Virus record (IMG/VR): IMGVR_UViG_3300034101_002741
Span: 1 to 33,088 of that record
Strand: one strand, 5' to 3'
From: a virus
Length of the DNA: 33,088 nt
Shown here: piece by piece, positions 669 to 33,088 of the stretch
How positions within the stretch are numbered: position 1 is the stretch's first letter
Layout of the letters: every line of letters begins with the position of its first letter
Notes under the pieces: model-generated
Database searches by the model: none
Seen by the model: the letters and a program-made list of their open reading frames with translations, nothing else
Told to the model about the DNA's origin: nothing
Position numbers and translations under genes: made by a program

Positions 669-1486
669 TAATTACGCCTCGTTATCGGCTCATAGCGATT
701 GTCGCAGGTTGATCGTGTCATTAGTTCATTTGGCCCTGGTGGCGAATTGTTTACCCCAAATGTCACGCCAAAGAAAAGGATGCCGGTAACACCAACCTCC
801 ATGAATGAGAAAGTTGTCTGATCTTCGTAGTACAAAGTTGAACCGCTGGCCGCCGCTCCAAATATTGCTTGACTTACCAGCGTTCCGTTTGCATGTTTGT
901 TTGTAGAAATAAGCTGCGCAGAAACAGGGCTAAGGTCGATCTCAGATTGACTTAGCCCTCTACTAACTGTGGTATCGAACGCACGAGATAAAAAGACGCT
1001 GCCAGCGGCTGGAAAGCCGTAAGTCATGCCGATTGCGAATTCATATTCAGTGGTAGCAAGATTGTTTGTTTTACTGATGCCATAGATTGTGCGTTTATTA
1101 AGTGTTCCATTGCCACTTGCAAGCTGATAAACCTGCCCTGCTATCGTCGCGTTGCCGCTGACGATGTTGGCATTCAGCGGAAAATACAGCGAATTGCCGA
1201 CCGCCGAAACATCATTCGCCGTTAGCGTGACATTCCCCGTTCGATTATTGAACGTACTGACACCGCCCGCTTGAGCCGATAGCAGCCCATTTGCGTTGAT
1301 CGTCAGATTATCGCCAACGATGATGCCGCCAAGCGTGCTATTAGTCGCGACGGGCAGAACGTAGCTGTTGCCGGTCGTCTGCACGACCACCGTATTATTC
1401 GGCTGTTGCCGCACAAGCACCTGATTGCTTGATGCCTGAATCGTCAGGCTGGTGGCATTGGCTTGTCTGACAATAATATCAGCCAT
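668..1486 (-). CDS. Putative tail fibre protein
   Basis: A 272-aa Thr/Asn/Gly-rich protein. The first 100 residues are short beta-strand repeats (IVGDNLTINANGLLSA, TFNNRTGNVTLTANDV). The segment STFNNRTGNVTLTANDV is characteristic of phage fibre shafts (FNGRTGAVTLTAADV in many homologues, from memory). The C-terminal half is probably a folded tip domain with a reference-type ending (TRSTCDNRYEPITRRN). It has ten N-X-S/T sequons. The stop overlaps the next ATG (TAATG). The family-level call of fibre is fairly sure; receptor binding is inferred. Confidence 0.75.
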   Translation of the reverse strand: MADIIVRQANATSLTIQASSNQVLVRQQPNNTVVVQTTGNSYVLPVATNSTLGGIIVGDNLTINANGLLSAQAGGVSTFNNRTGNVTLTANDVSAVGNSLYFPLNANIVSGNATIAGQVYQLASGNGTLNKRTIYGISKTNNLATTEYEFAIGMTYGFPAAGSVFLSRAFDTTVSRGLSQSEIDLSPVSAQLISTNKHANGTLVSQAIFGAAASGSTLYYEDQTTFSFMEVGVTGILFFGVTFGVNNSPPGPNELMTRSTCDNRYEPITRRN

Positions 1487-1836
1487 TAGCGGGTGACTTC
1501 CGGCGTGACAGTAAGCGTGCCGTAAAGCAGCCGATCAACTGTAGTATCGGGCTTGACCAGTTCAAGATCATAGACATAACTGCCCGCAGTCAGGTTAGCC
1601 GTTTGGGCGGCTGTCTGCTGCAAGGTGAAAGTGCCGTTGGCGGCTGATGTGATCGTAATATTACCGTTGGTTGTTGACAGGTCAAGTGTCGTATTGGCGG
1701 TATAAGCTGGCCGTGCCTGCATGCGGATGGTGTAGCCGGATAGGCTGATATTCGTCCCGTTAGCAGTCTGATACTGGATGGACTGCGACCAGGTGGCCCC
1801 TTGTTCTATTGTCAGGTTGCAATTACCGGCAGGCAT
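1486..1836 (-). CDS. Small beta-sandwich structural protein (tail or baseplate accessory)
   Basis: A 116-aa all-beta protein with the layout NLTIEQGATW - LSGYTIRMQARP - GNITI - GTFTLQ - AGSYVYDLELVKPD - LLYGTLTVTPEVTR. This pattern is common in small Ig-like phage proteins next to fibre genes (BppU N-terminal-like). Seven of its nine Asn residues lie in N-X-S/T sequons, the densest in the window. Start and stop each overlap a neighbour (TAATG), and a GAGG sequence precedes the start. It lies directly downstream of portal, so an accessory head or tail attachment role is possible. The precise role is unknown. Confidence 0.65.
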   Translation of the reverse strand: MPAGNCNLTIEQGATWSQSIQYQTANGTNISLSGYTIRMQARPAYTANTTLDLSTTNGNITITSAANGTFTLQQTAAQTANLTAGSYVYDLELVKPDTTVDRLLYGTLTVTPEVTR

Positions 1837-3143
1837 TATTCAGCCTCGCCTTCTGCTTGATCTTCTGCCGCTTCGGCTGGCGTGTCTCCGCCTTCGGCGG
1901 ACTCGATTTCGGCATAGCCCATGATCTGGCGAGCTTCATTCAGCGACAGTAAACCGGATTGGTACAAGGCCACCGCCCTGTCTGACAAGGCTTTCGTGTC
2001 TGCTGCCAGTTCTTCGATCTGGCTGGTATCAAACCTGACTGTGAGCATGTTATCAGGCTGGGCAATCGCGCCGTCATAGCCAGTGGGAAGCGTTCGCACC
2101 AGTCGCGTAAGCTGCATTGCCAGCAGTTCCAAGAAAGGAATGATCGCATCGCGCCAGCTTGCCCGATTGGCTTCAATCAAGTTGCTGTAGGTCTTGCCGG
2201 TGTCCGGTTGTTTTAATGACATTGGCGACCAGCCCAAGACACCACAGACACGGGCCACCGCGATTTCGGTCATCTCTTGGACTGAAAGATCTTTAGGCGA
2301 AAAGCCCGGCGTTTTGATGTCAAGCTCGCCACCCTTGAAAATCAATGGCCTGCCGACGCCCTTACCAGACACCGCCCGCTTGATGTCGGATTGAAGCACA
2401 GCAATATTGTCAGATGTCATCATCTGCGCCCCCGTGCCGGTCAGACTGACCAGCCATGAGGGCACACCGGATCGGCTCAGGATGGTTGTTTCGTAAATCG
2501 CTGTGAGCTTGATTAGTGCCAACTCTGCCCGCACTGCTTCCAGCGGTGAACGCCCCCTTGCGGCTGTCGTCGATGACTTGCCAACCCGAAAATGCAGCAT
2601 TCGCTCGCGAGGTGTCGTGAACTGGAAGCCCCGCCCACCATCGAAGCCGACAAAGGGATATTCGATGATTTCGCCGATGGCCTGTCCGTACGTCGGCACT
2701 TGAAGCCAACTATACGGGATGGGCTGGAGTTCGCGAATCGTGCCGCCCGTCTGCGTGTCCCGGTCAGAGATGGCGGGAACATAGGCGTTGCCATCCTCTA
2801 AAAGCTGTTGATAAATGAACTCAACCAGCGTTGATTCCGTTTCGCCTGGTGCGGGTTCTTTCCAGATTTGCAGCAGCGGATGATCTACCGGCTCAAATCC
2901 GCCTTCTTCATCAAAGTAGCCGACCTGCAATATGGCCTTGCAGACGTTCCGCCGCATGGCCTCAATCGCGGCCCTGATGACAGGGTTATCGCAATAAGGC
3001 CGGGCAAGATTGGCGTAATCATCACTTAGAGCGTTAATGACATCAACTGACCATGCCGACACGTCGATCTCGGTGGTGTCAGCAGTAACGCCCGTGCGAA
3101 GTGCTTTCGAGCGGAACCAGTTGAGTGGGTTGTAGTCAGGCAT
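1836..3143 (-). CDS. Portal protein, HK97 family
   Basis: At 435 aa it has a typical length for the Phage_portal family. It forms the dodecameric ring at the packaging vertex through which DNA enters and leaves the head. Visible family features are an N-terminal NPLNWFRSKALR segment, YCDNPVIRAAIEAMRRNVCKA, the LLEDGNAYVPAISDR wing segment near residues 112-126, the HFRVGKSSTTAARGRSPLEAVR loop, and VCGVLGWSPMSL with TYSNLIEANRASWRDAIIPFLE in the clip and stem region. The C-terminus is acidic. It starts 5 bp after the large terminase stop. It contains no N-X-S/T sequon, unlike the fibre genes that follow. Confidence 0.95.
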   Translation of the reverse strand: MPDYNPLNWFRSKALRTGVTADTTEIDVSAWSVDVINALSDDYANLARPYCDNPVIRAAIEAMRRNVCKAILQVGYFDEEGGFEPVDHPLLQIWKEPAPGETESTLVEFIYQQLLEDGNAYVPAISDRDTQTGGTIRELQPIPYSWLQVPTYGQAIGEIIEYPFVGFDGGRGFQFTTPRERMLHFRVGKSSTTAARGRSPLEAVRAELALIKLTAIYETTILSRSGVPSWLVSLTGTGAQMMTSDNIAVLQSDIKRAVSGKGVGRPLIFKGGELDIKTPGFSPKDLSVQEMTEIAVARVCGVLGWSPMSLKQPDTGKTYSNLIEANRASWRDAIIPFLELLAMQLTRLVRTLPTGYDGAIAQPDNMLTVRFDTSQIEELAADTKALSDRAVALYQSGLLSLNEARQIMGYAEIESAEGGDTPAEAAEDQAEGEAE

Positions 3144-3148
3144 TTAGA

Positions 3149-4495
3149 TTAGGAGAACCACTGAAAAGAGCCGTTTCTGCTGAGGTAGTTGAATGCGTCG
3201 GCTGCTGCATCCACCTGGTCATCATGTTGACCAGTGGGGAAGCTGCACAATTCGTCGATGAAAGCCCTGTTCCAATCGCCTCGCTCAAGCTCTACAAGGC
3301 CAGCTTCACAGGCTGCCGCAAACGGCATGGCCCGCACCTCTTTTGAGCCTGTTGGGCGGGCGGATACAGTCGCGAACCCTGCCAAGTTGATTTTGTCCTG
3401 CTCCACTTGATCAACTCCCGCGGCACCGGGATCTTGAGCAAGGTGGACGATTGTCTGAAGCCCGTCTATCTCGGCTGTCTGTCGCTGGATGGTTCGCCGT
3501 TGGGCTGGTGACCACTGACCTCTAACCACGTGGGTGATTCGGTATTTATCACCGATTCGCTGCATTCTGACGCCTGCGGTGTAGTCACCCGCCCCCGGCG
3601 TCGCTGCTGTATCGTAAGCGCGGCAAGCCAGCCCTGAGCTATTGCCCCCGTCACTAATAGGCAGCCAATCGTGACGGAAGAAGCCACCAGATCGAGGGCT
3701 AGGACGTTGTTGATAGAGGGCTGAGAATGCATAACTACCAATAGCCTTCTTAATTCTGTCAAAGTCTGCGACGTTGTAACGGTCTGGCCAGAGTGCCGCC
3801 CCCGGCTCTCTGCCAAGTGCATCACCTTCTTCGGCAATGGCTGGCAAGCTCACCACGTCCCACCGTTCGCCGCCGTTATTTGCTTCTTCCAGTAGTTGGC
3901 CCGCTAAATCGAGCGAATGCCAGCGGGTCATGATCAGCACGATAGCCGCGCCGGGGTGTAACCGCGTGTAGAGATCGTTTTGATACCAGTCCAGCACTCT
4001 CGCCCGGTAAGTTGGTGATTCAGCCTCTTGGCGGCTTTTGACCGGGTCGTCAATCACTACCAGATCAGCACCGTAGCCCGTGACACCTGAGCCGACGCCG
4101 ACCGCATACAGCCCGCCACCGTGAACTGACGACCACTGATTCTGCTTGTTTGAATCGTTCGCGAACTGGAATCCGAATCGACTAACGAGCCGCCTTGTCT
4201 GTCGGCTGAATGTGCATGCGAGGCTGTGATTATAGGCTCCGACAATGACCCGCATGGTTTGGTTGCGGAGTAGTCGATAGGCCGGATAGTGAATCGTTGA
4301 TTGTTCGCTTTTGCCGTGCCGTGGTGGCAGGAAAAGCATTAGCCGTGTGATTTCGCCGTTTGTTACCCGGTCAAGCCGGTTTCGGCAGAGTTTAAGATGA
4401 TTCGGATGCCACTGATGATTCGGACTGACACGCTCTAAAAACTGCCATAAACCAGCCTTAATCAAGCTGTTCCGGGGCTGGCTCAGGGTCATCAT
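3149..4495 (-). CDS. terL: Terminase large subunit
   Basis: A 448-aa packaging motor and nuclease. The N-terminal ATPase has a Walker A-like PPRHGKSE (57-64), Walker B LVVIDD (145-150) and coupling motif IMTRW (188-192). The C-terminal RNase H-like nuclease has acidic residues in AYDTAATP (Asp 295), LAQDPGA (Asp 355) and the DDQVDAAADAF motif (425-435), as in Terminase_6 proteins. Its start overlaps the DUF5681 gene by 38 bp, the usual small-then-large terminase layout. The packaging mode cannot be assigned without phylogeny. Confidence 0.95.
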   Translation of the reverse strand: MMTLSQPRNSLIKAGLWQFLERVSPNHQWHPNHLKLCRNRLDRVTNGEITRLMLFLPPRHGKSEQSTIHYPAYRLLRNQTMRVIVGAYNHSLACTFSRQTRRLVSRFGFQFANDSNKQNQWSSVHGGGLYAVGVGSGVTGYGADLVVIDDPVKSRQEAESPTYRARVLDWYQNDLYTRLHPGAAIVLIMTRWHSLDLAGQLLEEANNGGERWDVVSLPAIAEEGDALGREPGAALWPDRYNVADFDRIKKAIGSYAFSALYQQRPSPRSGGFFRHDWLPISDGGNSSGLACRAYDTAATPGAGDYTAGVRMQRIGDKYRITHVVRGQWSPAQRRTIQRQTAEIDGLQTIVHLAQDPGAAGVDQVEQDKINLAGFATVSARPTGSKEVRAMPFAAACEAGLVELERGDWNRAFIDELCSFPTGQHDDQVDAAADAFNYLSRNGSFQWFS

Positions 4496-4766
4496 CGTAA
4501 TTGTTTAACGTGTCGCCTGATTGATCGCTTGCGGCAACCTTGCCGTTCAGTCTGTCGTAGATGGCCTGCCAGTAACGAAAGTCACCACCCAAGGCTTGTT
4601 TCAATCCAACTTCAACCAGCTTGTCGAGTAAATCTGGCGAATTAACCAGAACCCTATCAAGGGCCTCATTCATATCCGGTCGTTTGGGCCTGCCTTTTGG
4701 GTTGCCGCTTTCGCCTGGCTTCCAAGGTGGTCGAAGTCCTGACCTGTCAGGATTAAGGTTTGCCAT
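4458..4766 (-). CDS. DUF5681 protein, probable small terminase or packaging accessory protein
   Basis: A 102-aa protein whose N-terminus has the DUF5681 signature PWKPGESGNPKGRPKRPD (about residues 15-32). In many phages DUF5681 genes lie just before terL and are thought to bind DNA during packaging. The C-terminus is acidic (DDDPEPAPEQLD). I chose ATG 4766; an in-frame TTG at 4793 would add nine residues, and neither start has a convincing Shine-Dalgarno sequence. Overlap with terL suggests translational coupling. The family call is sure, the small-terminase role is inferred. Confidence 0.8.
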   Translation of the reverse strand: MANLNPDRSGLRPPWKPGESGNPKGRPKRPDMNEALDRVLVNSPDLLDKLVEVGLKQALGGDFRYWQAIYDRLNGKVAASDQSGDTLNNYDDDPEPAPEQLD

Positions 4767-4817
4767 TTCAGTACGGTGCTTTTTTCGGTGCAATCATCGG
4801 TGAAACTACCGATATTG

Positions 4818-5243
4818 TCACCAGTCCACCCGCCCCCGCAGATTGACCATCGATTCAATTGCACCACGGCCCGGCTGGGCACCCTTGTTTCGTCGCTTGT
4901 TGCCGGTCAGCCGCTGCATCTCGGCATTACGCTTGATGCGTGCCTCACTGATGACCTTTTGCAGTGCGTACTGGCGTTGCTCCCACCTGGCAGCAGCTTG
5001 CAGCACTGCATCGAACTTCTTGTCGGCTCGCAGGCATTTCAGGCAGATGGCGGGCTTGATCTTCTCCAGGCTCCTGCCACTGTCGCAGACTCCGCACGGT
5101 GATTTCTGGCTTGACTCTCGCCAACCGTCAGGTGGCACTAAGCCGACCAGTTCAACCGTCTGCCCGCCCAGGTACACTCTGACCTGCGCTTCAGCCCGGC
5201 GGTTGATTTGATCTTCTGTTAATTCTTCAGATAACGATTCCAT
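4818..5243 (-). CDS. Hypothetical protein with a four-cysteine zinc ribbon
   Basis: A 141-aa protein. CGVC and CLKC lie about 15 residues apart (roughly residues 50-72), a zinc ribbon candidate. A basic, probably helical C-terminus follows (ISEARIKRNAEMQRLTGNKRRNKG). It sits just upstream of the DUF5681-terL pair, where DNA-binding packaging or late-regulator proteins are common. No family is recognised. Its 5' flank (5244-5299) is AT-rich with runs of seven or more A/T, and no Shine-Dalgarno sequence is evident. Confidence 0.6.
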   Translation of the reverse strand: MESLSEELTEDQINRRAEAQVRVYLGGQTVELVGLVPPDGWRESSQKSPCGVCDSGRSLEKIKPAICLKCLRADKKFDAVLQAAARWEQRQYALQKVISEARIKRNAEMQRLTGNKRRNKGAQPGRGAIESMVNLRGRVDW

Positions 5244-5299
5244 TAAATATTGACACTAAACGCTAAAAAAAATTACCGCAATCGCAAATAAAAAAAGTT

Positions 5300-5497
5300 T
5301 TATTTGTTTGGGAAATCAACGATAGTTGGCTCGTTAATTTCACCCCATTTATGGAACCGCTTCAGCGGTGTTATTTCTTCTTCGTAAATCTCAGAGATCC
5401 TGAAATTGCCATCGTCCTTACAAATAGCCGACACCACCCGCTTAACGAGTCGGTCTGGGTGTCGGTATTGAAAGTTGATGAACTTCTTGGTCGGCAT
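5300..5497 (-). CDS. Hypothetical 65-aa protein
   Basis: An unrecognised, mixed-charge small protein (FQYRHPDRLVKRVVSA, then ISEIYEEEITPLKRFHKW). The frame stays open upstream to an ATG at 5635, but that extension overlaps a RusA-like remnant in another frame and looks non-coding, so I chose ATG 5497. No Shine-Dalgarno sequence precedes it. A perfect TATAAT (minus strand, 5504-5509) lies six bases before the ATG, so a leaderless message is conceivable. Confidence 0.45.
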   Translation of the reverse strand: MPTKKFINFQYRHPDRLVKRVVSAICKDDGNFRISEIYEEEITPLKRFHKWGEINEPTIVDFPNK

Positions 5498-8585: not shown

Positions 8586-8821
8586 GATTCAACCTCAATT
8601 TCCTTTGGGTGAATGCTCTTGGCTTCCTTGATCAGATAGATCCGGTCGAAGTCCTGCGGTTTGATCGTGAAATAGGCGTTGTTGCGGAAAAGAACGTCGA
8701 TGGCTGCGATGTCAAACGCTTTGCCTTTGGCGTCGCGTCTGTATTCAATCTTTACGACTGTGCCGACCATGATTGATTCTTTCGCTCGGATAGTGTCGCC
8801 GACTTGAAACCTGTTGATCAT
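8582..8821 (-). CDS. Hypothetical small beta-barrel protein, 79 aa
   Basis: The layout FQVGDTIRAKESIMVGTVVKIEY - AIDVLFRNNAYFTIKPQDFDRIYLI looks like an SH3-like barrel. Such proteins are common in phage early operons, often without known function. It is coupled to csrA by an ATGA overlap, so the two are probably made together. Confidence 0.6.
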   Translation of the reverse strand: MINRFQVGDTIRAKESIMVGTVVKIEYRRDAKGKAFDIAAIDVLFRNNAYFTIKPQDFDRIYLIKEAKSIHPKEIEVES

Positions 8822-9018
8822 GACACGCCATCCTTTTCTGCGTTTTTCAGCTTCTTTTCCCTGATTTCTGGCCGATTGATCTGTACGTTTTTCGATGCAC
8901 TGAAGGCCAGCTTGACCTTATCGCCACGAATCTCGGCGACGATGACTTCGATTGTTTCGTCACCAGCATCGATGACAACTGTTTGAAGTTTACCCCTTGT
9001 CAGTACCAGGACACCCAT
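8818..9018 (-). CDS. csrA: CsrA-family RNA-binding translational regulator
   Basis: A 66-aa protein, close to the usual 60-70 aa. It carries the N-terminal VLVLTR strand (Arg 8), the EIRGDKVKLAFSASKNVQI core and NRPEIREK, with Arg 49 at the position of the RNA-contacting Arg 44 of E. coli CsrA. CsrA dimers bind GGA motifs in mRNA leaders and block or alter translation. I chose ATG 9018, not the in-frame ATG 9033, because GGAGG lies eight bases before it. That GGAGG is itself a possible CsrA target, so autoregulation is conceivable. It is the first gene of the 9018-5300 run, just below a hairpin-rich leader. Confidence 0.88.
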   Translation of the reverse strand: MGVLVLTRGKLQTVVIDAGDETIEVIVAEIRGDKVKLAFSASKNVQINRPEIREKKLKNAEKDGVS

Positions 9019-9040
9019 CGTTGCAACCTCCATGATGATT

Positions 9041-9059: not shown

Positions 9060-9154
9060 CGTGAGTTCCATGCCTGCCGCCTTTGAAAGTTCAGCCTGAT
9101 AACATCTCAGGCAGCCTTCCACCGCCCCGGCGTCGGACTGTGACGACCGAGGAA

Positions 9155-9197
9155 ACCACCTGCCGGGAGTCGAACCCGGCTCATGCCGATAGGTGGT
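9155..9197 (-). other. tRNA-like minihelix (acceptor plus T-arm)
   Basis: On the minus strand, ACCACCT (9197-9191) pairs perfectly with AGGTGGT (9161-9155). Nested inside is a perfect 6-bp T-arm, GCCGGG-TTCGACT-CCCGGC (9180-9162), with the canonical TTCGA loop. Only ten bases (9181-9190) replace the D and anticodon arms, and no CCA follows (TTCC instead). It is therefore not a working tRNA, but it copies the top half of one. It lies between the DGQHR gene and csrA, where nothing else is encoded. Confidence 0.55.
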
Positions 9198-9204
9198 GTT
9201 ACGA

Positions 9205-10035
9205 TCAATCTTCTATTCTTTTTTCAAATCTGTTTCTTAAGCCTTTGTTTATTTCAATCAAAACTCCAGTTGCCCATATTTTAGAGCCGCGTTTCTGGTA
9301 AAGCTCTGATGCTTTATAAGTTGCTTTTAACAATGCTGATTCTCCTATTAATCGTAATCGGCTCTTGAATCTTTCATCATCGATTGAAACATTTAAAGTT
9401 TCATCAAGATAAAACAATGATGACGAAACCCGTTCATGAATTGTCTGACCTGGACAAGTTTCGGTCATAACTCTTATGACTTTTGCGAACCTATCCTTGT
9501 TTTTTTCTGCTGCCAGCATGCACCATCCCAAGCATTTGATATAGCTTCCTTTTCTCTGATCTTTTCTCCACTCAATACCATGTTGAGTAAGTGTTTTATC
9601 TACAAAAATAGCCGTTTGATTCCCCGATGAAATCAATGCTCTAAACCTTGCAATCATTTCTAGCGGCCTTCTGTTTGTATTTAAATCCAAGAAACTTACA
9701 GCTTCTTGAACTACATCCGATGTCTCAAAAACTAAGCATGGAAGATCTGAGATGTCGCTCCGTTTTTGTGAAGCTAACACTCTATGCTGGCCATCAATTA
9801 CATAATATTTACCGGATCTTTTCCCTACTATTATGGCACCCGCAGCAATCCATGACCAATTCGAAGCAAGATCAGTTATTTTTTTTGAATTAGCATCTCT
9901 TTGATATTCTAAATCAATATTTAGTGAATATTTGTTGAGAAAGATTAATTGGCCTGGCTTGTCTTTTACAGTCCAGCCGTAGCGATCAATCTTTGATCTT
10001 CCATTTACGTTATCGCTGATGTGGATTTTAGGCAT
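9205..10035 (-). CDS. DGQHR / ParB-like domain protein
   Basis: A 276-aa protein. Residues about 30-110 resemble a ParB/Srx-type fold: LEYQRDANSKKITDLA, AGAIIVGKRSGKYYVIDGQHR (motif at 81-85), then LPCLVFETSDVVQEAVSFLDLNTNRRPL. DGQHR proteins include the DNA phosphorothioation regulator DndB and several phage ParB-like proteins. The rest is helical. ATG 10035 has GGGAG seven bases upstream. The gene is more AT-rich than its neighbours and is flanked by structured non-coding stretches, hinting at separate acquisition. The domain call is fair, the function unknown. Confidence 0.7.
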   Translation of the reverse strand: MPKIHISDNVNGRSKIDRYGWTVKDKPGQLIFLNKYSLNIDLEYQRDANSKKITDLASNWSWIAAGAIIVGKRSGKYYVIDGQHRVLASQKRSDISDLPCLVFETSDVVQEAVSFLDLNTNRRPLEMIARFRALISSGNQTAIFVDKTLTQHGIEWRKDQRKGSYIKCLGWCMLAAEKNKDRFAKVIRVMTETCPGQTIHERVSSSLFYLDETLNVSIDDERFKSRLRLIGESALLKATYKASELYQKRGSKIWATGVLIEINKGLRNRFEKRIED

Positions 10036-10066
10036 CTGAGTCTCCCTGAGGAATTGCTGAAATCAT

Positions 10067-10098
10067 AGTTAAAACCCACCCCGCCAACGCAGCGGGGC
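10067..10098 (-). terminator. Possible rho-independent terminator or attenuator hairpin
   Basis: On the minus strand CCCCGC (10097-10092) pairs with GCGGGG (10084-10079) around a 7-base loop, followed by TGGGTTTT. It lies 45 bases before the DGQHR start. The U-run is short (four), so it could be an attenuator or simply part of the structured 10036-10273 region. Confidence 0.4.
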
Positions 10099-10171
10099 GA
10101 GTCGCAGAAGTTTTCCGCCGTTTTGGACCAGCGGCCAGCCGTGGCGAAAATCGAAGGACTCCACGACTGAA

Positions 10172-10239
10172 ATGGGTGGCAGGGATCGAACCTGCCGACC
10201 GTCGGTCTGGAAATACCCGACAGTCCCGCCCAGCCCCAT
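10172..10239 (-). other. tRNA-like structure without a normal D-arm
   Basis: On the minus strand: ATGGGG (10239-10234) against ACCCAT (10177-10172) gives five pairs; a central arm GTCGG/CCGAC (10221-10217 with 10205-10201) closes an 11-nt loop containing ATTTCCA; and a perfect 6-bp T-arm GGCAGG-TTCGATC-CCTGCC (10196-10178) follows. A normal D-arm is absent (12 nt instead) and no CCA follows. It may be a decayed tRNA or a deliberate mimic. It resembles the minihelix at 9155-9197 only in having a 6-bp T-arm with a TTCGA loop. Confidence 0.4.
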
Positions 10240-10273
10240 AAACCGCCATCCGTGGCGTTTGTTGCATCCCTGC

Positions 10274-12721: not shown

Positions 12722-13003
12722 GGATAGGGTCAAAAAATATCATCCTATCCAGCTAATTTTATCCTATCCATCATAAACCATTACAGCATAATACTTTGAT
12801 AGGATGGATAGGATGGATAGGATGTTTTTCGGGTCTTACACACATACACATGCGTGACGCGTGCGTGTGCATACGCGTGGGGTTTTTTATCCTATCCATG
12901 GTATCCATCCTATCCATAAATTTATAAGTTATTTAATAATAACAACTTACAGATGGATAGGATAAAAAAATATCCTATCCAAATGGATAGGATGGATAGG
13001 ATG
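12722..13003. other. Probable replication origin with GGATAGGAT iterons
   Basis: The 371-bp gap 12668-13038 has no gene. It holds about a dozen copies of GGATAGGAT or its complement. Forward copies include GATAGGATG three times in tandem (12798-12824), GGATAGGAT at 12955-12963 and GATAGGATG twice (12986-13003). Reverse copies ATCCTATCC are at 12742, 12761, 12889 and 12972, with CATCCTATC at 12906. A degenerate copy starts at 12722. The array brackets a 43-bp alternating purine-pyrimidine tract and an AT-rich stretch (12917-12950), and lies next to the primase-helicase gene. This is the classical layout of an iteron origin. Confidence 0.75.
12837..12879. repeat. Alternating purine-pyrimidine (Z-DNA-prone) tract in the origin
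   Basis: The tract consists of TACACACATACACATGCGTG followed by ACGCGTGCGTGTGCATACGC and GTG. Two runs of strict purine/pyrimidine alternation, 20 and 23 bases long, meet at one phase change. ACGCGT occurs twice (12857-12862, 12873-12878). Such sequence readily adopts Z-DNA under negative supercoiling and could serve as part of the unwinding element. Confidence 0.65.
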
Positions 13004-13038
13004 ATATATACGGGAATCTAAATTACGATGTTAAATTC

Positions 13039-15588
13039 TTAAAATGGTGGTTCCACTGGCCAGTCTTTGGGGTAGAGTTCTTTAGGCTGATCATCTTCTT
13101 TCTTTGGTGGATCAACCTTTTCCAGCCGCCAAAGGGTCTTGGAGCCGTGCGTGACAGTCCCAACAAGCCGATAAACGCCATCGTCGCCCATCTGGACGGT
13201 ATGTCCATTGCGAGAGCGTAGGGCAACGCCAATGGCTGTAGATAGATTTCTGGAGCCTGCAAACAGGCCGGCCAGCTTGGCTGCGTGCCCAGGCACTGGA
13301 TGAGTAGCCAAAGCTGCTGCCAGATCGATCGATCTAAATTCTTTGCGTGGTTCACCGTCTAAGTATTCTTTCAGTCCTGTAAGCAGATCGTCGGTCATTT
13401 CTGCCTTGCTGTCCATCTTTCTCAGTGTCGCCTGAGTTTTCATCACGTCAATTCCTTCGCTCTTGTCGCTGGCCATCTTGGTTGCCCTGTAAATAGCGTT
13501 TCTAACGATCCTGCTCCATTCGGTAAATCCCTCATCATCTGCCAGCTTTTCATCAGGCTCCGGGCATCCCTGATTAATGTGCCATGCCAGAATGACCATG
13601 CAGGCAGCCGCAACATCAGCCGCCTTTTCTTTCATTATGTCGCCATAGCTCTTTTCATAGTTTTTCGTTTCTCGTGTTTTCAGCTTTATCAATAAGCACC
13701 TGCGAACCATATCATCAGATACGGCTACGTTGTTGCCGTTGGCCAGAATCATGAATCCTGAATCTCTGGACTCGACCACGTTGTTTTTACCGAAGACCCG
13801 GTCTTGAATCCGGCCCGCTGTGATAATCCCGTCCAGAACTGGGTCGCCGAATGTTGTCCCATCTTTCAGGTTGTCGTAATAGATGTAGTTTCTAGCGGTT
13901 CCGGCTGCTGAAAACAGGTCTGTCAGAAGTTGCTGACCTGATCTTAAATAGCTTGGCACCGGCCTTGATTCGCCTGTCCCGCATCTGATTACCTGCTCTG
14001 AAATCTGTGTCTTTCCTGACCCCCGATTCTCAGAGACAATCAACAGCGATGGCCTGATTTTCATCATGCGTCTGGCCTGTAGCGTCATAATGCCAGCCGC
14101 AGCGGTCCAGATTGAATTGAGCTTTTCAGCATCATCAAATGAGAATATTGAGAAACAATCCTCAATGATTCTTACCGCTTCTTTAACCTGATAATCAGTA
14201 ATTTCAGAACTTGGTGAAATGACTTCAATTTCACTGTTTGAAATCTTTAGCACGCCCGAACTATTGTCATATCCTTCTTTGCTGACAAGTTTGCCGTTCG
14301 GTGAAAAATACGGAAATGTCGCAACATCGTTTAACTGCCTGATGCCTTCTTTTTCAGGGTCTTGTATGATCGCTTCCAAGACAACGCGAGCCGGATTGCA
14401 GCCAACTTCAATCCATTCCGGGCTTCTCTTGTCGCCTATGTTTTTGAGTCGATAAAACCAGACAAGCCCGGTCAGGATCGAAGCCAACCGGCTCGTTTCA
14501 ATGTCAACGATTCGCCATGGATAGGTTTCGCCTGGTGTCGCCACCACCTCAATAAGCCGCCCGTTTCGCTTATAGATCGCCGGATGTTTTACGAGTTCAT
14601 CAAGACACTTATTGGCGATGTCCTCAACTTCCCCCTCAACCATCATGATTTTGCATCGTCGATCATCAGTCAGGTTCTTGGGTGGCTCCGGCCCGCCGTT
14701 GTCTCTGATGATTTTCACCAGAGAACCAAACTGAATCATCTTGCCGGTTTTTCGCTTGAACGTCCTTACCTTCTGATAACATTCATTGGTAATGTGTTTC
14801 TCGTGACGATTCGACCATTTCTCCCATAGTTCCGTGCCGGGGTCGCCGAATCTTGCATTTAACGCCATGCCGACTGAAAGCCACTGAGAATAATCGTCAA
14901 GTTGGCTATCCAGAAAGCCATCGTCCATGCACTTTTCTATCCATTCAAAATCGGCATCCGTTTCTTCATTCTCATCTCTGATCGTTTCCTTTGTTTCTTC
15001 TTTGCCGTACAGCTTCAATAATTCATCAAGCCCCCGCTGGCCTTCTGGTATCTCATCTACGGCACCTTTCACCATGTTTCCAGTCGTGGCAAAATATCGA
15101 CCGCTGGCGTAAATTTCGATTCCAACATGATTTTTAGTTTCTTTGACCGCTCTTGGTATCTTGCCTTTAACTAACAAATGAACGCCATTGCCAGAGGGCG
15201 AATATTCAACATGGCATGGCGGGAACATCTGAATGATTTCTTTGGCCCATTGTGCGATTTCGCCATTATTTATACATCCATCCAGATCGATAAAAACCAA
15301 TCCGCCTGCGTCTATCGCATTGCCCAGGCTAAAACCAATCCCATCAACCTTTCCAGCCTGATAAAGCCCGAACGCATCACCCAGCGACATTCGAGCATCA
15401 TCAGATTGATGGTCAATATCCCTGCCGTTTTTGGGATTCGTAGGCTTCTTTGTCCACTTCTTACCATTCCATTCCAGCCGCCATACTACCCACTTCTTAC
15501 TGGCTTTTAACTCTGTGGGCATACCTTCTACGTCCACCTCCAAAAGTTTTGGCTTTTGGGGTGCTATCAAACTTTTATTGTCTGTCAC
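13039..15588 (-). CDS. Primase-helicase fusion (PrimPol-like, PriCT-2, SF3-like ATPase)
   Basis: An 849-aa replication protein. Residues 23-60 (MPTELKASKKWVVWRLEWNG and following) and 95-180 (VFIDLDG, PSGNGVHLLVKG, IEIYASGRYFATTG) match primase-polymerases of the NrS-1 type. Residues about 213-295 (WLSVGMALNARFGDPGTELW, TFKRKTGKMIQFGSL) are PriCT-2. The ATPase domain has Walker A SENRGSGKT (519-527), Walker B-like YIYYDNLKDG (568-577) and sensor FMILANGNNV with MVRRCLLIKL. It should prime and unwind at the adjacent iteron origin. It is translated after the RHH gene, 5 bp downstream. Confidence 0.9.
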   Translation of the reverse strand: MTDNKSLIAPQKPKLLEVDVEGMPTELKASKKWVVWRLEWNGKKWTKKPTNPKNGRDIDHQSDDARMSLGDAFGLYQAGKVDGIGFSLGNAIDAGGLVFIDLDGCINNGEIAQWAKEIIQMFPPCHVEYSPSGNGVHLLVKGKIPRAVKETKNHVGIEIYASGRYFATTGNMVKGAVDEIPEGQRGLDELLKLYGKEETKETIRDENEETDADFEWIEKCMDDGFLDSQLDDYSQWLSVGMALNARFGDPGTELWEKWSNRHEKHITNECYQKVRTFKRKTGKMIQFGSLVKIIRDNGGPEPPKNLTDDRRCKIMMVEGEVEDIANKCLDELVKHPAIYKRNGRLIEVVATPGETYPWRIVDIETSRLASILTGLVWFYRLKNIGDKRSPEWIEVGCNPARVVLEAIIQDPEKEGIRQLNDVATFPYFSPNGKLVSKEGYDNSSGVLKISNSEIEVISPSSEITDYQVKEAVRIIEDCFSIFSFDDAEKLNSIWTAAAGIMTLQARRMMKIRPSLLIVSENRGSGKTQISEQVIRCGTGESRPVPSYLRSGQQLLTDLFSAAGTARNYIYYDNLKDGTTFGDPVLDGIITAGRIQDRVFGKNNVVESRDSGFMILANGNNVAVSDDMVRRCLLIKLKTRETKNYEKSYGDIMKEKAADVAAACMVILAWHINQGCPEPDEKLADDEGFTEWSRIVRNAIYRATKMASDKSEGIDVMKTQATLRKMDSKAEMTDDLLTGLKEYLDGEPRKEFRSIDLAAALATHPVPGHAAKLAGLFAGSRNLSTAIGVALRSRNGHTVQMGDDGVYRLVGTVTHGSKTLWRLEKVDPPKKEDDQPKELYPKDWPVEPPF

Positions 15589-15917: not shown

Positions 15918-16181
15918 GTGAAGCAGCAAAAAACCAAACTTGCGAAACCGGCGTCCGACAGGGCGATTGCGTTTCGCGCTCCAGCCACCATTCATGGTGC
16001 GTTGAAGCAGATCACAGGCAAGCTGGAGATGGACGACTACCAGCTTGATGGTCGTGTGCCATACGAGCGTGACATTCTCGTCTGGCTTGTCGGTGAACTG
16101 TACATGGAAGGCCCGGAGAAATGGGCTGACCGTCTATCAAAAGCGGCAGGCCGATTCAAACAACTGGCCAGCCAAAACTAA
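15918..16181 (+). CDS. Hypothetical protein, possibly an RHH-type regulator
   Basis: An 87-aa protein, one of only two plus-strand genes. The GTG start has GGAG nine bases upstream. AIAFRAPATIHGALKQI looks like a strand-helix start of a ribbon-helix-helix domain, but a charged insert follows before RDILVWLVGELYMEGPEKW. It is divergent from the RHH-primase operon across two operators and precedes attP and the integrase, so an excision or lysogeny role is plausible. Not recognised. Confidence 0.6.
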   Translation: MKQQKTKLAKPASDRAIAFRAPATIHGALKQITGKLEMDDYQLDGRVPYERDILVWLVGELYMEGPEKWADRLSKAAGRFKQLASQN

Positions 16182-16233: not shown

Positions 16234-16279
16234 TTGACTCTTAATCAGCGGGTCGCAGGTTCGAGCCCTGCAGAGGGCA
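16234..16279 (+). other. attP: attP core: 3' half of a tRNA-Lys(CUU) gene
   Basis: TTGACTCTTAATCAG forms an anticodon arm with loop CTCTTAA (anticodon CTT, Lys). It is followed by a perfect T-arm GCAGG-TTCGAGC-CCTGC (16255-16271) and the 3' acceptor strand AGAGGGC plus discriminator A, then a T-run. No matching 5' acceptor or D-arm lies upstream, so this is only the 3' part of a tRNA. That is what a phage carries when it integrates into, and restores, a host tRNA gene. The integrase starts about 115 bp downstream. Confidence 0.85.
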
Positions 16280-16393
16280 TTTTTTTAAGCCTTTATGAAA
16301 TCATGTGTTATGTTTGTTTTGTTGATACCCGCCTCAGTACCTTACCCCGGTTGAATCATGGTACCTTACCAAAAAACAAATTTTGGCCAGTCG

Positions 16394-17551
16394 ATGCCTC
16401 GGCCGCGTAACCTATTCCCAACATATACTTTACATAAGAAATCTGGCCTCGCCAGATGCACATGGCAGGGCGATACGGTCTATTTAGGCAAATTCAATTC
16501 GCCGGAATCTATTTCAGCGTACAATCAAGTCTTGTCTCTATTTAATCTTACAGGAAAAATCCGACAGGAAAATAAATGTGTCAGTGTAGCGGAATTAATT
16601 ACGCAATTCCTTGCGTACTTAAAAGTTACAAACGAAGTGAAGCCGCGTGAAATCAAGAATATGGCGTTTGCCTTGCGTTGGGTCGAAAAGTTGTTTGGTA
16701 ATTTACCCGCAAACGAATTTAAGGCGTCGCAGTTGGTGATGGTGCGTGACAAGATGATTGAAGGTGACTTGAGCCGATCAACCATCGTCAAATATCAACG
16801 ATTCATCGTGAGGTGCTGGCGGTGGGGTGTCCGGTCTGATCTGGTGCCTGGTGCGGTAGTCGATTCGTTGCGGGCGTTGGAGACACTGAAGAAACGACGA
16901 TCAGCAGCACGGGAGCCGGAGAAGGTCAAGCCGGTGACATGGGAAGCGGTCGAAGCGGTCAAGGAACATGTGGCCAGCCGCATCTGGGCAATGATCTTGC
17001 TTCAGTGGTACACCGGCATGAGACCGGGCGAAGTCATTCAGATCAGGCCGGTGGACATCGACCGAACCGGCCCGGTTTGGTTCTATCGACCACCACAGCA
17101 TAAGACAGACTGGCGCGACAAAGAACGGGTGGTCGGCATTGGCCAGCAGGGGCAGGCGGTTTTAATGCCCTGGCTCAATCGATCTGCCGACATGCCCTGT
17201 TTTAGTCCTGCTGAAGATCGTGAGGAGCGCTTTGCGGCTATGCGATCTTCGCGAAAGACAAAAGTTCAGCCCTCGCAGGTCAACCGCAAAAAAAAGACAC
17301 CGGCACGGACGCCGGGTGATATTTACGAAGTGTCCAGCTATCAACGAGCCATCAAACGAGCCTGTGAAAAAATCGGCATAGAGCCGTGGGCACCGAACCA
17401 ACTACGGCACACGTTCGCGACTCGAGCGCGAAAAGAGTTTGGCCTTGATGCCGCCCAGGTGGCACTTGGTCACGAGCATGCAGACGTCACGCAGGTTTAT
17501 GCTGAAAAAGATATTGGCCTGATTCGAGAGGTTGCGGAGCGGTTGGGGTGA
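16394..17551 (+). CDS. int: Tyrosine recombinase / integrase
   Basis: A 385-aa site-specific recombinase, with catalytic residues Arg 210 (TGMRPGEV), Lys 237 (PPQHKTD), Arg 338 (NQLRHTF), His 360 (LGHEH) and nucleophile Tyr 369 (TQVYAE). Position 335, usually the His of HxxR, is Asn. The N-terminal MPRPRN...YTLHKKSGLA and the CFSPAEDREER...VQPSQ insert match, from memory, an integrase group common in Planctomycetota. I chose ATG 16394 because that group starts there; ATG 16358 would add 12 residues. Neither has a strong Shine-Dalgarno sequence. It acts on the adjacent tRNA-Lys attP. Confidence 0.93.
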   Translation: MPRPRNLFPTYTLHKKSGLARCTWQGDTVYLGKFNSPESISAYNQVLSLFNLTGKIRQENKCVSVAELITQFLAYLKVTNEVKPREIKNMAFALRWVEKLFGNLPANEFKASQLVMVRDKMIEGDLSRSTIVKYQRFIVRCWRWGVRSDLVPGAVVDSLRALETLKKRRSAAREPEKVKPVTWEAVEAVKEHVASRIWAMILLQWYTGMRPGEVIQIRPVDIDRTGPVWFYRPPQHKTDWRDKERVVGIGQQGQAVLMPWLNRSADMPCFSPAEDREERFAAMRSSRKTKVQPSQVNRKKKTPARTPGDIYEVSSYQRAIKRACEKIGIEPWAPNQLRHTFATRARKEFGLDAAQVALGHEHADVTQVYAEKDIGLIREVAERLG

Positions 17552-17574: not shown

Positions 17575-17829
17575 TCACTCCTCCGCCCGGTCAATTAGCC
17601 GCCTGACCACCTCGCCCCGCGTCACACGCCAATTTTGAGCAATCGTCGCCAGCTTGGCCGACGTGGCCTGCGATAACGCGACGCTGATCTGCGCCCGCTC
17701 GCCCAGGCTGGCAACCCGCTTTTCCCGGGCGCGTGGTTTGGGCTTGCGGCCCGGTCTTTGAGTGCCGGGTTTATTGCGGGTGCCAACTGGTCGGCCTCGC
17801 TTGGGTTTGTCTGATTCTGAGTCTGGCAT
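17575..17829 (-). CDS. Ribbon-helix-helix protein with an AT-hook-like basic N-terminus
   Basis: Residues 1-45 are basic with GRP-type hooks (KPKRGRPVGTRNK, QRPGRKPKPRA). Residues about 48-82 (ISVALSQATSAKLATIAQNW, then RVTRGEVVRRLIDRA) are a ribbon-helix-helix. I start at ATG 17829. The frame continues up to ATG 17886, and a perfect AGGAGG serves ATG 17894 in another frame. A -1 slip or miscount at TTTTTT (17868-17873) would join that start to this frame. Convergent with the integrase, 23 bp apart, and the last gene of the accessory operon. Confidence 0.65.
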   Translation of the reverse strand: MPDSESDKPKRGRPVGTRNKPGTQRPGRKPKPRAREKRVASLGERAQISVALSQATSAKLATIAQNWRVTRGEVVRRLIDRAEE

Positions 17830-17925
17830 TCTGGTTGTCTGGCCAGCGTGAGACTGGCCCCAAAAAAGGAAAGTGTTACACTCCATCCGGTCATTGTCGC
17901 GGCCTCCTGCCGTGGGGTGGTGGGG

Positions 17926-26213: not shown

Positions 26214-27638
26214 TTACACAAGTTCCTGAATAATCTGGAAGGCTCGTGTGTCTCTCACAGCCCCGCCGAAGCGGTATTTCACCGCAATACGGACACGGTT
26301 CGCATAGGCCAACGACACCTCATCAATCGCGACCGTAAAGCCCTGCCGCAGAAGTAGGATGTACTCGTTAAAGTCACCTAAGACAATCGACTTCGGTGTC
26401 GATGCGCCAGAGGCAGGCACGAAGCCATTAAAGTAAACCGGCTGGCCCATGATGGAAGGCGTAATACCTTGCACATAGCCAGAGTCGGCAGAACCCAAGA
26501 AAAGGCTTCTGTTGGTCGTATCATTCAGGGCAACCAGCTTGCCATGAGTCGCACGACGCATCACCCACGAAAGGTTGGTGGCATACTGGTCAGCAAGGGC
26601 ATAGAACCCGTCGATCACCTTGGATGCGACAAGCGTGTTATTGCTGCCGGTCTTGGTGATGCCGACAGAACTGTTGGAAATCACACCTTCCGCTTCGGTC
26701 GATGCGGTCACACCGTTAATGACCTGATTATCAACCACAGCAGCAAAGGCCTTGCTGGCCTCTGTCTGGATGTAGTTACTAATGCCTGCCACGTCAGCGA
26801 AGAAGTCAGCCGATACGTCAGTAAACATCGTGCCGGTGTTTACCGGGATGGTCAACTGAGTGAACGGGCCGGTATCGATCTTTGACAGCGTGGTATTGAC
26901 TGTTTCACCCATGAACGGGCGGAACGTCGTACCATACTGCGGCGACGTGGTGATGTTGTTCGTGTTTGAATCACGTGGGAAACTCACCTGATTGACATTT
27001 GTGTTAATGACGCGGCAAATGCGAGTCATTACAGGGGCAACCGTTCTGCCGACAACCACATCAAAGCGGAAATCAGGCGTGACGGTGTTTGTGCCGTTGG
27101 TGGTGGTGCCAAGTGTCATATCCTTTGAGAAAGGCATATAAAACTCGTTGGAAGGCAGGCCGAAGTCGCCGCCCTTGCCGTACACCTCAAGCATATTCCG
27201 CAGGCTTGAACTCTTGACCAGTTCAATGCGACCGCGTGCTTGAATCAAAGCCTTGAATGCCTGGTGATATTCAGGTGATGCCAATGCCGACTTGTCAGAC
27301 GGATCGGCAAGTCCGCCGTTATCCAGCACGCGGCCATCGTAGGAGACGCGAGCCGGTTGATATTGAACATTAGCCCCGTAAACGGTCGGTTCGGGCCGAT
27401 TCGGTTGACGTGCCATCTTTTCGATCATCTGGTTCGCACGCTCAAGCGATGCGGCCAGTTGATATTCACTGTCGCAGCGTTCAAGCTGGTCCATCAGGCT
27501 CGACAAGTCGGCTGATTTCTCAGCACGCACTTCATCGGGAGCCGATACCAGTTCATCACGCAAGCCCTGAACCTGCGCAGCCAAGCGAAGACGGTCTTCA
27601 GCAATCGCCGAAGCCATGCGAGTCTCTGTCAAAGCCAT
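26214..27638 (-). CDS. Major capsid protein, HK97 fold
   Basis: A 474-aa protein. The N-terminal ~90 residues are a charged coiled coil (delta/scaffold domain: VQGLRDELVSAPDEVRAEKS, then LMDQLERCDSEYQLAASLER). The rest is the capsid domain, with KALIQARGRIELVKSSSLRN, MTRICRVINTNVNQVSFPRD, FFADVAGISNYIQTEASKAF and VAIDEVSLAYANRVRIAVKY. ATG 27638 has AAGGAGG eight bases upstream, the best ribosome site in the operon; an upstream in-frame ATG at 27695 overlaps the protease and is unlikely. Confidence 0.92.
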   Translation of the reverse strand: MALTETRMASAIAEDRLRLAAQVQGLRDELVSAPDEVRAEKSADLSSLMDQLERCDSEYQLAASLERANQMIEKMARQPNRPEPTVYGANVQYQPARVSYDGRVLDNGGLADPSDKSALASPEYHQAFKALIQARGRIELVKSSSLRNMLEVYGKGGDFGLPSNEFYMPFSKDMTLGTTTNGTNTVTPDFRFDVVVGRTVAPVMTRICRVINTNVNQVSFPRDSNTNNITTSPQYGTTFRPFMGETVNTTLSKIDTGPFTQLTIPVNTGTMFTDVSADFFADVAGISNYIQTEASKAFAAVVDNQVINGVTASTEAEGVISNSSVGITKTGSNNTLVASKVIDGFYALADQYATNLSWVMRRATHGKLVALNDTTNRSLFLGSADSGYVQGITPSIMGQPVYFNGFVPASGASTPKSIVLGDFNEYILLLRQGFTVAIDEVSLAYANRVRIAVKYRFGGAVRDTRAFQIIQELV

Positions 27639-27651
27639 TTGAGTGGCCTCC

Positions 27652-28335
27652 TTACTTATGTCGCCGGTTTGGCGATTGAAAATCAGAAATGACACGGTCT
27701 GACAGCTCGCACCGCTTCATTAGGGCGGCAAAATCGAGCAGCTTTCCGGCCACTTGCACGAAGCCAGTGGGTGGTAATGCCGGTGTATCACAGTCGTCGT
27801 GAGACTTGACTGCGATCACTTCCGCGCCAGGATTGGCGGGGATCGGCACGATGGAGACTTCCAAGACCTCTGCCACCTCGCTGATCAGGTTTGCACCTGA
27901 CTTGGCGAGCTGCTTCTGGGCTTCGCTTGGTGTGTAGTTGTATTTCTGCCAGAGTTCACGGATGGCTGAATCTGGGATGCGTGTCGGACGTTTGGCGTAA
28001 AAACTAATCGACATTTTCCGCAATGCCTTTTCTTTCAGTAATTGGCGTACTTCCTGCCCTGATTTGGTGGCAGACAAGGCAACGTCAACCATCAGGCCGC
28101 TTCGATCCTCGTGAGCATCGATCAGTGTGCCGATCACAGCGGATGTCTTGTTTTCATGGTCGGCCAAGACCATCCCGCCATCGTCCATAAATGTCTGAAT
28201 GGCACCGGAGAAGGCACCGGGCAGAATGATGTCGCCCTGCCGGTCGATGTTCAGGAATCTTGCGGCATAGCCCTTAAACGAGCCTGCACCGCCGCCATTG
28301 ACAGTCGTTTCGACTGCCTTTACAAGTTTTTCCAT
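27652..28335 (-). CDS. Prohead maturation protease (HK97 family, peptidase U35)
   Basis: A 227-aa protein. It has GYAARFLNIDRQGDIILPGA, MVLADHENKTSAVIG (His 60) and LRKMSISFYAKRP (catalytic Ser region, about 111), then EVLEVSIVPIPANPGAEV. It removes the delta domain of the capsid protein after assembly. The C-terminus is an extra helix. It lies 13 bp before the capsid start. Confidence 0.92.
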   Translation of the reverse strand: MEKLVKAVETTVNGGGAGSFKGYAARFLNIDRQGDIILPGAFSGAIQTFMDDGGMVLADHENKTSAVIGTLIDAHEDRSGLMVDVALSATKSGQEVRQLLKEKALRKMSISFYAKRPTRIPDSAIRELWQKYNYTPSEAQKQLAKSGANLISEVAEVLEVSIVPIPANPGAEVIAVKSHDDCDTPALPPTGFVQVAGKLLDFAALMKRCELSDRVISDFQSPNRRHK

Positions 28336-32359: not shown

Positions 32360-33010
32360 TTAGAAATTCTGCCCCGCCTTGAACGCAAACCAGTTCGTTC
32401 CGCCGTCAGTTGTCAGGAAGCTGAACACGTCTGTCTTATTGGCGGTGGTTGTGAGTGTCGGCGTGCTGTTGGCCGCCCATTTGACAGCCGCTGGCCATGT
32501 CACAGAGAAGGCCGTTCCATTGCCTCTCAGAAGCAGCGTGAAGCTGCCTGCCGTACCGTTGGCAGGCGTGCCAGAGATGGTCAGATTGGAGATATTGGCC
32601 GTTAGGCTGATCGGCCCGAATACATTCCCATTTGCCAGATTCAAGGTCAGGTTATTACCCGAAATGGCGGGCGTGTTAGCCGTTTCGGTGTATGCCTGAA
32701 GTTTCGGGGCTGTGACCAAGTTGCCATTGCAGGCAATTGTTGAATTGGCGGTTATCCCCCCGGTGGCGGTCAGGGTGCCGGAAACAGTGACCGAGCCGCT
32801 GAAATTGTTCGTGCCGCTAAAAGTGCTGTTGGCGGTGGTCAGATCAGGCACGGCATAAGGTAATGCCGACCACGCGGAGCCGTTGCCAATTTTAAACTTG
32901 CCCGTATTGGTCTCGAAGCCGATCTCGCCGGTGGCCAGCGTGGTATTGGCACTGGTGAATGCGGCGGCGGTGTCGCGTCTGACTTGTATCGTGACATTTG
33001 ACGTAGCCAT
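32360..33010 (-). CDS. Tail fibre protein with Mtd-like N-terminal domain
   Basis: A 216-aa protein. Residues 7-52 (QVRRDTAAAFTSANTTLATG, then EIGFETNTGKFKIGNGSAWS) match the N-terminal attachment domain common in phage fibres. The C-terminal half (SFTLLLRGNGTAFSVTWPAA, then VKWAANSTPTLTTTANKTDV) is a beta domain widespread in tail proteins. Thirteen N-X-S/T sequons. ATG 33010 overlaps the upstream stop (TAATG). The first 50 codons recur at 1-150 through the circular overlap. Confidence 0.8.
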   Translation of the reverse strand: MATSNVTIQVRRDTAAAFTSANTTLATGEIGFETNTGKFKIGNGSAWSALPYAVPDLTTANSTFSGTNNFSGSVTVSGTLTATGGITANSTIACNGNLVTAPKLQAYTETANTPAISGNNLTLNLANGNVFGPISLTANISNLTISGTPANGTAGSFTLLLRGNGTAFSVTWPAAVKWAANSTPTLTTTANKTDVFSFLTTDGGTNWFAFKAGQNF

Positions 33011-33088
33011 TATGCGCCGCCCCCATCGTAAACATTCGGCCCGCTGGCTGTTGCCGATCCGCCATCGATGGTCAGGACAGTGACGTCT
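32861..33088. repeat. Right copy of the 228-bp end overlap
   Basis: Pairs with 1-228 (226 of 228 identical). It contains the start of the fibre gene at 33010 and the end of its upstream gene. Confidence 0.93.
33010..33088 (-). CDS. C-terminal fragment of the fibre protein encoded at 150-668
   Basis: The last 26 codons (LDVTVLTIDGGSATASG, then PNVYDGGGA) of the gene that is complete at 150-668, cut by the window edge. Stop TAA overlaps the next ATG. Confidence 0.9.
   Translation of the reverse strand, partial: DVTVLTIDGGSATASGPNVYDGGGA

Follow-up and report, generated by a model that had tools for sequence, protein, structure and literature searches.

A half tRNA-Lys(CUU) beside a long-insert tyrosine integrase in an undescribed temperate tailed phage

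Gene content of a circular phage genome

We analysed the whole of IMG/VR virus record IMGVR_UViG_3300034101_002741, a stretch of 33,088 bp hereafter called the window. Its two ends repeat the same 228 bp with 2 mismatches, indicating a complete circular genome with ~32,860 bp of unique sequence. The features relevant here are the following:

1–228, no strand: end repeat of the circular genome, copy 1
1836–3143, minus strand: portal protein
3149–4495, minus strand: terminase large subunit (TerL), with 208 relatives in IMG/VR
8818–9033, minus strand: phage-borne CsrA homologue (Pfam, 7.7e-12)
13039–15588, minus strand: primase/helicase-type replication protein (PriCT_2)
15918–16181, plus strand: 87-aa ORF directly left of attP, with no family match
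16236–16279, plus strand: attP core, a 3' half tRNA-Lys(CUU) that runs from the anticodon arm through to the discriminator base
16358–17551, plus strand: tyrosine integrase of 397 aa, long-insert subtype
17575–17886, minus strand: 103-aa protein, weak match to PHROG 876 (transcriptional repressor, 2.9e-4)
26214–27695, minus strand: major capsid protein
27652–28335, minus strand: head maturation protease
32861–33088, no strand: end repeat, copy 2

Other products encoded include a Mu F-like head protein, a neck protein, an HNH nuclease and a ParB-like/DUF6551 protein. The terminase, portal, HK97-type capsid, protease and integrase, together with the weakly matching repressor, are those of a temperate dsDNA tailed phage; with the tRNA-Lys attP, they support the temperate lifestyle that a first-pass annotation of this DNA had proposed. 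The 103-aa protein is a candidate lysogeny regulator, and the position of the 87-aa ORF would fit a directionality factor or a small regulator.

This bacterial virus is undescribed: in a set of 50,697 deposited phage records, the right half of the window had no DNA match and the integrase had none at 1e-5. The best deposited TerL match was Acetobacter phage phiAO1 (LC644971), an alphaproteobacterial phage, at 45% identity; phiAO1 carries a catalase, a peroxiredoxin and other genes not seen in the window, and offered no integrase match. The first-pass suggestion that the lineage may be little known holds for annotated phages but not for IMG/VR, where its many TerL relatives show it to be common.

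An A+T-rich stretch near the primase gene (12756–13007), in which GGATAGGATGGATAGGATG recurs in direct and inverted orientation, is a candidate replication origin. These repeats, the ParB-like/DUF6551 protein and the PriCT_2 primase would suit a phage that persists mainly as a plasmid-prophage and uses its integrase for dimer resolution. We consider this very unlikely, as Xer-type resolution needs no half tRNA beside the recombinase and there was no partition ATPase among the proteins searched.

The half tRNA-Lys and its integrase

The attP core (GACTCTTAATCAGCGGGTCGCAGGTTCGAGCCCTGCAGAGGGCA, plus strand) comprises an anticodon loop CTCTTAA (anticodon CUU), a T arm (GCAGG-TTCGAGC-CCTGC), the 3' acceptor strand and the discriminator A, with no encoded CCA. 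At up to 3 mismatches it occurred once in the window and in none of 100 shuffled sequences, and 35 of 35 nt agreed with an intact tRNA-Lys(CTT) on a separate contig, L004. ARAGORN detected no whole tRNA in the window, as expected since only half of one is present. On the same strand, the integrase gene starts after a further 79 bp, so that the tRNA-Lys(CUU) attachment site beside a tyrosine recombinase was read correctly at first pass. The core length of 46 bp is provisional, its exact value depending on the attB sequence.

Two contigs (G001 and G002) encode integrases 95–96% identical to that of the window and carry the same half-tRNA with a few differences. Their T-stem is GCAAG/CTTGC where the window has GCAGG/CCTGC; this change is compensated, indicating that the half-tRNA is kept as a working tRNA sequence. 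Their acceptor strand reads AGGGGGC versus AGAGGGC in the window. The DNA of the window and G002 is nearly identical to the left of the core, and divergence begins within the core; a fourth contig (L161) has the G002 version. The same tRNA-Lys core also lies in unrelated contigs (L002–L007), whose integrases are unrelated too.

The integrase matched Pfam Phage_integrase (2.9e-16) and PHROG 1 (1.6e-37), with catalytic residues R222, K249, R350, H351, H372 and Y381. The HxxRH box starts with N347, an Asn replacing the usual His. Since this Asn is common in the family (21 of the 50 members examined with a search pattern that allowed only H or N at this position), the enzyme is presumed to be active. 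An insert of ~100 residues separates the catalytic Lys from the HxxRH box. The closest relative of this integrase outside the lineage, encoded by the provirus L164 (IMGVR_UViG_2671180531), is 41% identical over 397 of 397 aa and has the same insert, with the motifs FSPA-REERFA, RKTKV-PSQV and PNQLRH common to both; the particular insert-bearing type of integrase singled out at first pass does exist.

Tyrosine integrases with tRNA genes as their targets, from temperate phages and islands, have been catalogued in Islander (PMC4383910), and the arrangement in the window resembles theirs, with the integrase beside a 3' tRNA half and an integration that would split and restore the tRNA gene. The window integrase differs from them in its lack of any match at the above threshold in the deposited phage records, its long insert and its Asn in place of the HxxR His. 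The type of integration is already known, and this phage adds a new member to it.

An integrase family with exchangeable tRNA targets

A search with an alignment of the lineage integrases yielded 105 relatives, from which 79 loci were kept. In the 59 loci with enough upstream sequence, we surveyed up to 420 bp before the start codon and found a half-tRNA in 52, compared with 1.1% of control windows from the same loci. The targets span at least nine specificities (Lys, Ile, Asn, Ala, Val, Pro, Gly, Arg and CAU, the latter Met or Ile), and an encoded CCA was absent from 50 of the 52 attachment sites. In a tree of the family, the support for the place of the window integrase was weak. One family integrase, in a predicted provirus (L191, contig IMGVR_UViG_2721755258_000001), is directly followed by a gene for a Cas9-like protein (1243–4830, plus strand; HNH_4, RuvC_III and Cas9_a domains).

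In the 15 tRNA-Arg(CCG) sites, the acceptor strand (CGGGTGTA) and the 3' strand of the anticodon stem (GCAAA) were invariant, whereas the T-stem occurred in seven versions, paired in every case. Both strands of the T-stem belong to the phage half, and it can vary as long as it pairs, while the two fixed strands must pair with the 5' half contributed by the host. This pattern suggests that the crossover lies in the anticodon region and that the rebuilt tRNA of the lysogen would be under selection. It also reveals, with no data beyond the sequence, where a half-tRNA has to match its host.

Four sister phages in IMG/VR (G008, G009, G020 and G022) have TerL proteins 86–98% identical to that of the window and belong to the same lineage, also with an integrase beside a half-tRNA. 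Their integrase, in contrast, is a 358-aa protein only ~31% identical to that of the window, with 61–62 residues in place of the long insert, and it lies beside a half tRNA-Arg(UCU); more distant phages use tRNA-Arg(CCG). The window integrase is nearer to that of L164 than to those of its sisters. Terminases that are ~90% identical, combined with different integrases and tRNA targets, demonstrate that the module formed by the integrase and attP is exchanged between phages.

A half tRNA-Lys beside an integrase points to insertion into a host gene with immediate repair. We hold it very likely that the region serves a temperate tailed phage as its integration module, with an integrase that joins the half-tRNA attP to a host tRNA-Lys(CUU) gene, likely in a planctomycete. 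The integrase would recombine the phage half-tRNA with the host gene (attB), most likely within the anticodon loop or stem. The phage would provide a new 3' half and so rebuild the host tRNA on one side of the prophage; the 3' half that it displaces would mark the opposite side. The module would represent one allele of a family that could be re-aimed at other tRNA genes by swapping the integrase together with the adjacent half-tRNA.

That the half-tRNA might instead be a remnant, or a piece of tRNA carried by the phage and inactive as an attachment site, would agree with our finding no attB/attL/attR pair for the window phage. Such a reading is extremely improbable given the short distance to a full-length integrase, the same arrangement in most relatives, the compensated T-stem changes that keep the half-tRNA functional, and the integration of the relative L164 in the same tRNA. 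With integration at tRNA-Lys(CUU) as the favoured interpretation, a circular genome with a named attachment gene offers a lead to the host and a lysogeny route that can be tested.

Probable host and a tRNA-like element near csrA

The provirus L164 is placed exactly at a tRNA-Lys(CUU) gene, which is rebuilt intact there (tRNA-Lys(CTT), 5259–5332); the integrase starts at 5450, 118 bp after the tRNA, and the host pheT gene lies on the other (left) side. The number 2671180531 denotes, by IMG convention, a sequenced isolate genome and not a metagenome. Two host genes beside L164, otherwise dissimilar, end in the same type of tail (..FSPAWRTSTVLALASQMYELRDFSALPILADALQDAG..HCR..GPHARGC.VVDLVLGKE). 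They had no match in NCBIfam, Pfam or plasmid searches, and we take the repeated tail to be of the Gemmata type, which makes a host from the Planctomycetota likely for this provirus. L164, probably of Gemmata, shares with the window the integrase insert, the target tRNA-Lys(CUU) and the absence of an encoded CCA, but its terminase is only 32% identical over 254 aa and the T-stem of its tRNA is different. Its tRNA acceptor strand, AGGGGGCA, is that of G001 and G002.

Other routes did not name the host. Single scans of a prokaryote genome collection retrieved neither an exact copy of the core, the search that the first-pass annotation had suggested, nor a close integrase, and we found no IMG/VR contigs of the lineage long enough to include host flanks. 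Conservation of tRNA-Lys halves between phyla is too high for the core to single one out: Bradyrhizobium plasmids match 36 nt of it at 97%. TerL and capsid matches were too distant, and the plasmid integrases retrieved, from Acidiphilium and Thermus, were only 22–26% identical. A phrase search of the literature for planctomycete phages returned nothing relevant; to our knowledge, few phages of the Planctomycetota have been described.

The planctomycete assignment made at first pass was therefore supported indirectly: the integrase has a relative next to genes that we recognise as Gemmata-like, but no exact core match accompanied it, and the terminase, with its distant best match to an Acetobacter phage, did not decide the phylum. 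Moreover, a planctomycete-type integrase is no proof of a planctomycete host because integrase modules move between phages. The phage might use the same mechanism in a host outside the Planctomycetota that likewise encodes its tRNAs without CCA, having acquired the cassette from planctomycete elements. The module exchange, the alphaproteobacterial origin of the best deposited TerL match and the absence of core and integrase matches in the prokaryote genome collection are compatible with this. We nevertheless judge it unlikely: the integrase must fit the tRNA of its present host, the acceptor strand of G001 and G002 is that of the tRNA-Lys in the L164 host, nearly all attachment sites of the family are devoid of an encoded CCA, and the phage carries csrA, a gene that is, as far as we know, absent from several phyla. 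On balance, the host of the window phage is probably a planctomycete, and the integrase family could serve for site-specific integration in this group.

Two tRNA-like elements lie on the minus strand of the window (10167–10240 and 9151–9197). The element also occurs in L021, L029, L039, L044, L050, L051, L062, L067, L069, L079 and L086. The first of the two folds into an acceptor stem of 7 bp, which stacks on a T-stem of 6 bp closed by a TTCRANY loop. In an alignment of 12 distinct copies, from the window and its relatives, 93.6% of the cells were paired and 9 of the 13 pairs had changes on both sides. Double-changed cells numbered 31, compared with 8.3 in shuffled alignments, none of 500 shuffles reaching the observed value, and sliding the pairing partner abolished the covariation. 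The RNA has no D arm. A variable hairpin occupies its middle part, except in the second element and in L051, where a 10-nt linker takes that place. A model built from the element matched, among the loci examined, only phages that belong to the lineage or resemble it, including L051, L207, L209, L214 and L219, which had not been used in building it. Rfam searches of the window and 8 relatives yielded nothing relevant.

A csrA-like ORF follows the element at ~110–180 nt in the window (second element) and in L050, L051, L067, L069, L079 and L086. Whether the lineage combines its retargetable tRNA-integrase cassette with an undescribed class of tRNA-like RNA (an acceptor stem on a T arm, without D arm, and with a variable hairpin, or nothing, in place of the anticodon arm) that lies upstream of csrA and perhaps controls it seems to us evenly balanced. 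Its role may be, for example, that of an RNase P site, or it may decoy a factor that binds tRNA.

Between the two elements (9198–10166, minus strand) lies cargo that differs in the close relatives L021, L027, L047 and L050, consisting of DUF6551/ParB-like, HNH-like and small DNA-binding-like genes. Two different cargos share the ending CACCACCTATCGGCATGA, as if they had been inserted at that site.
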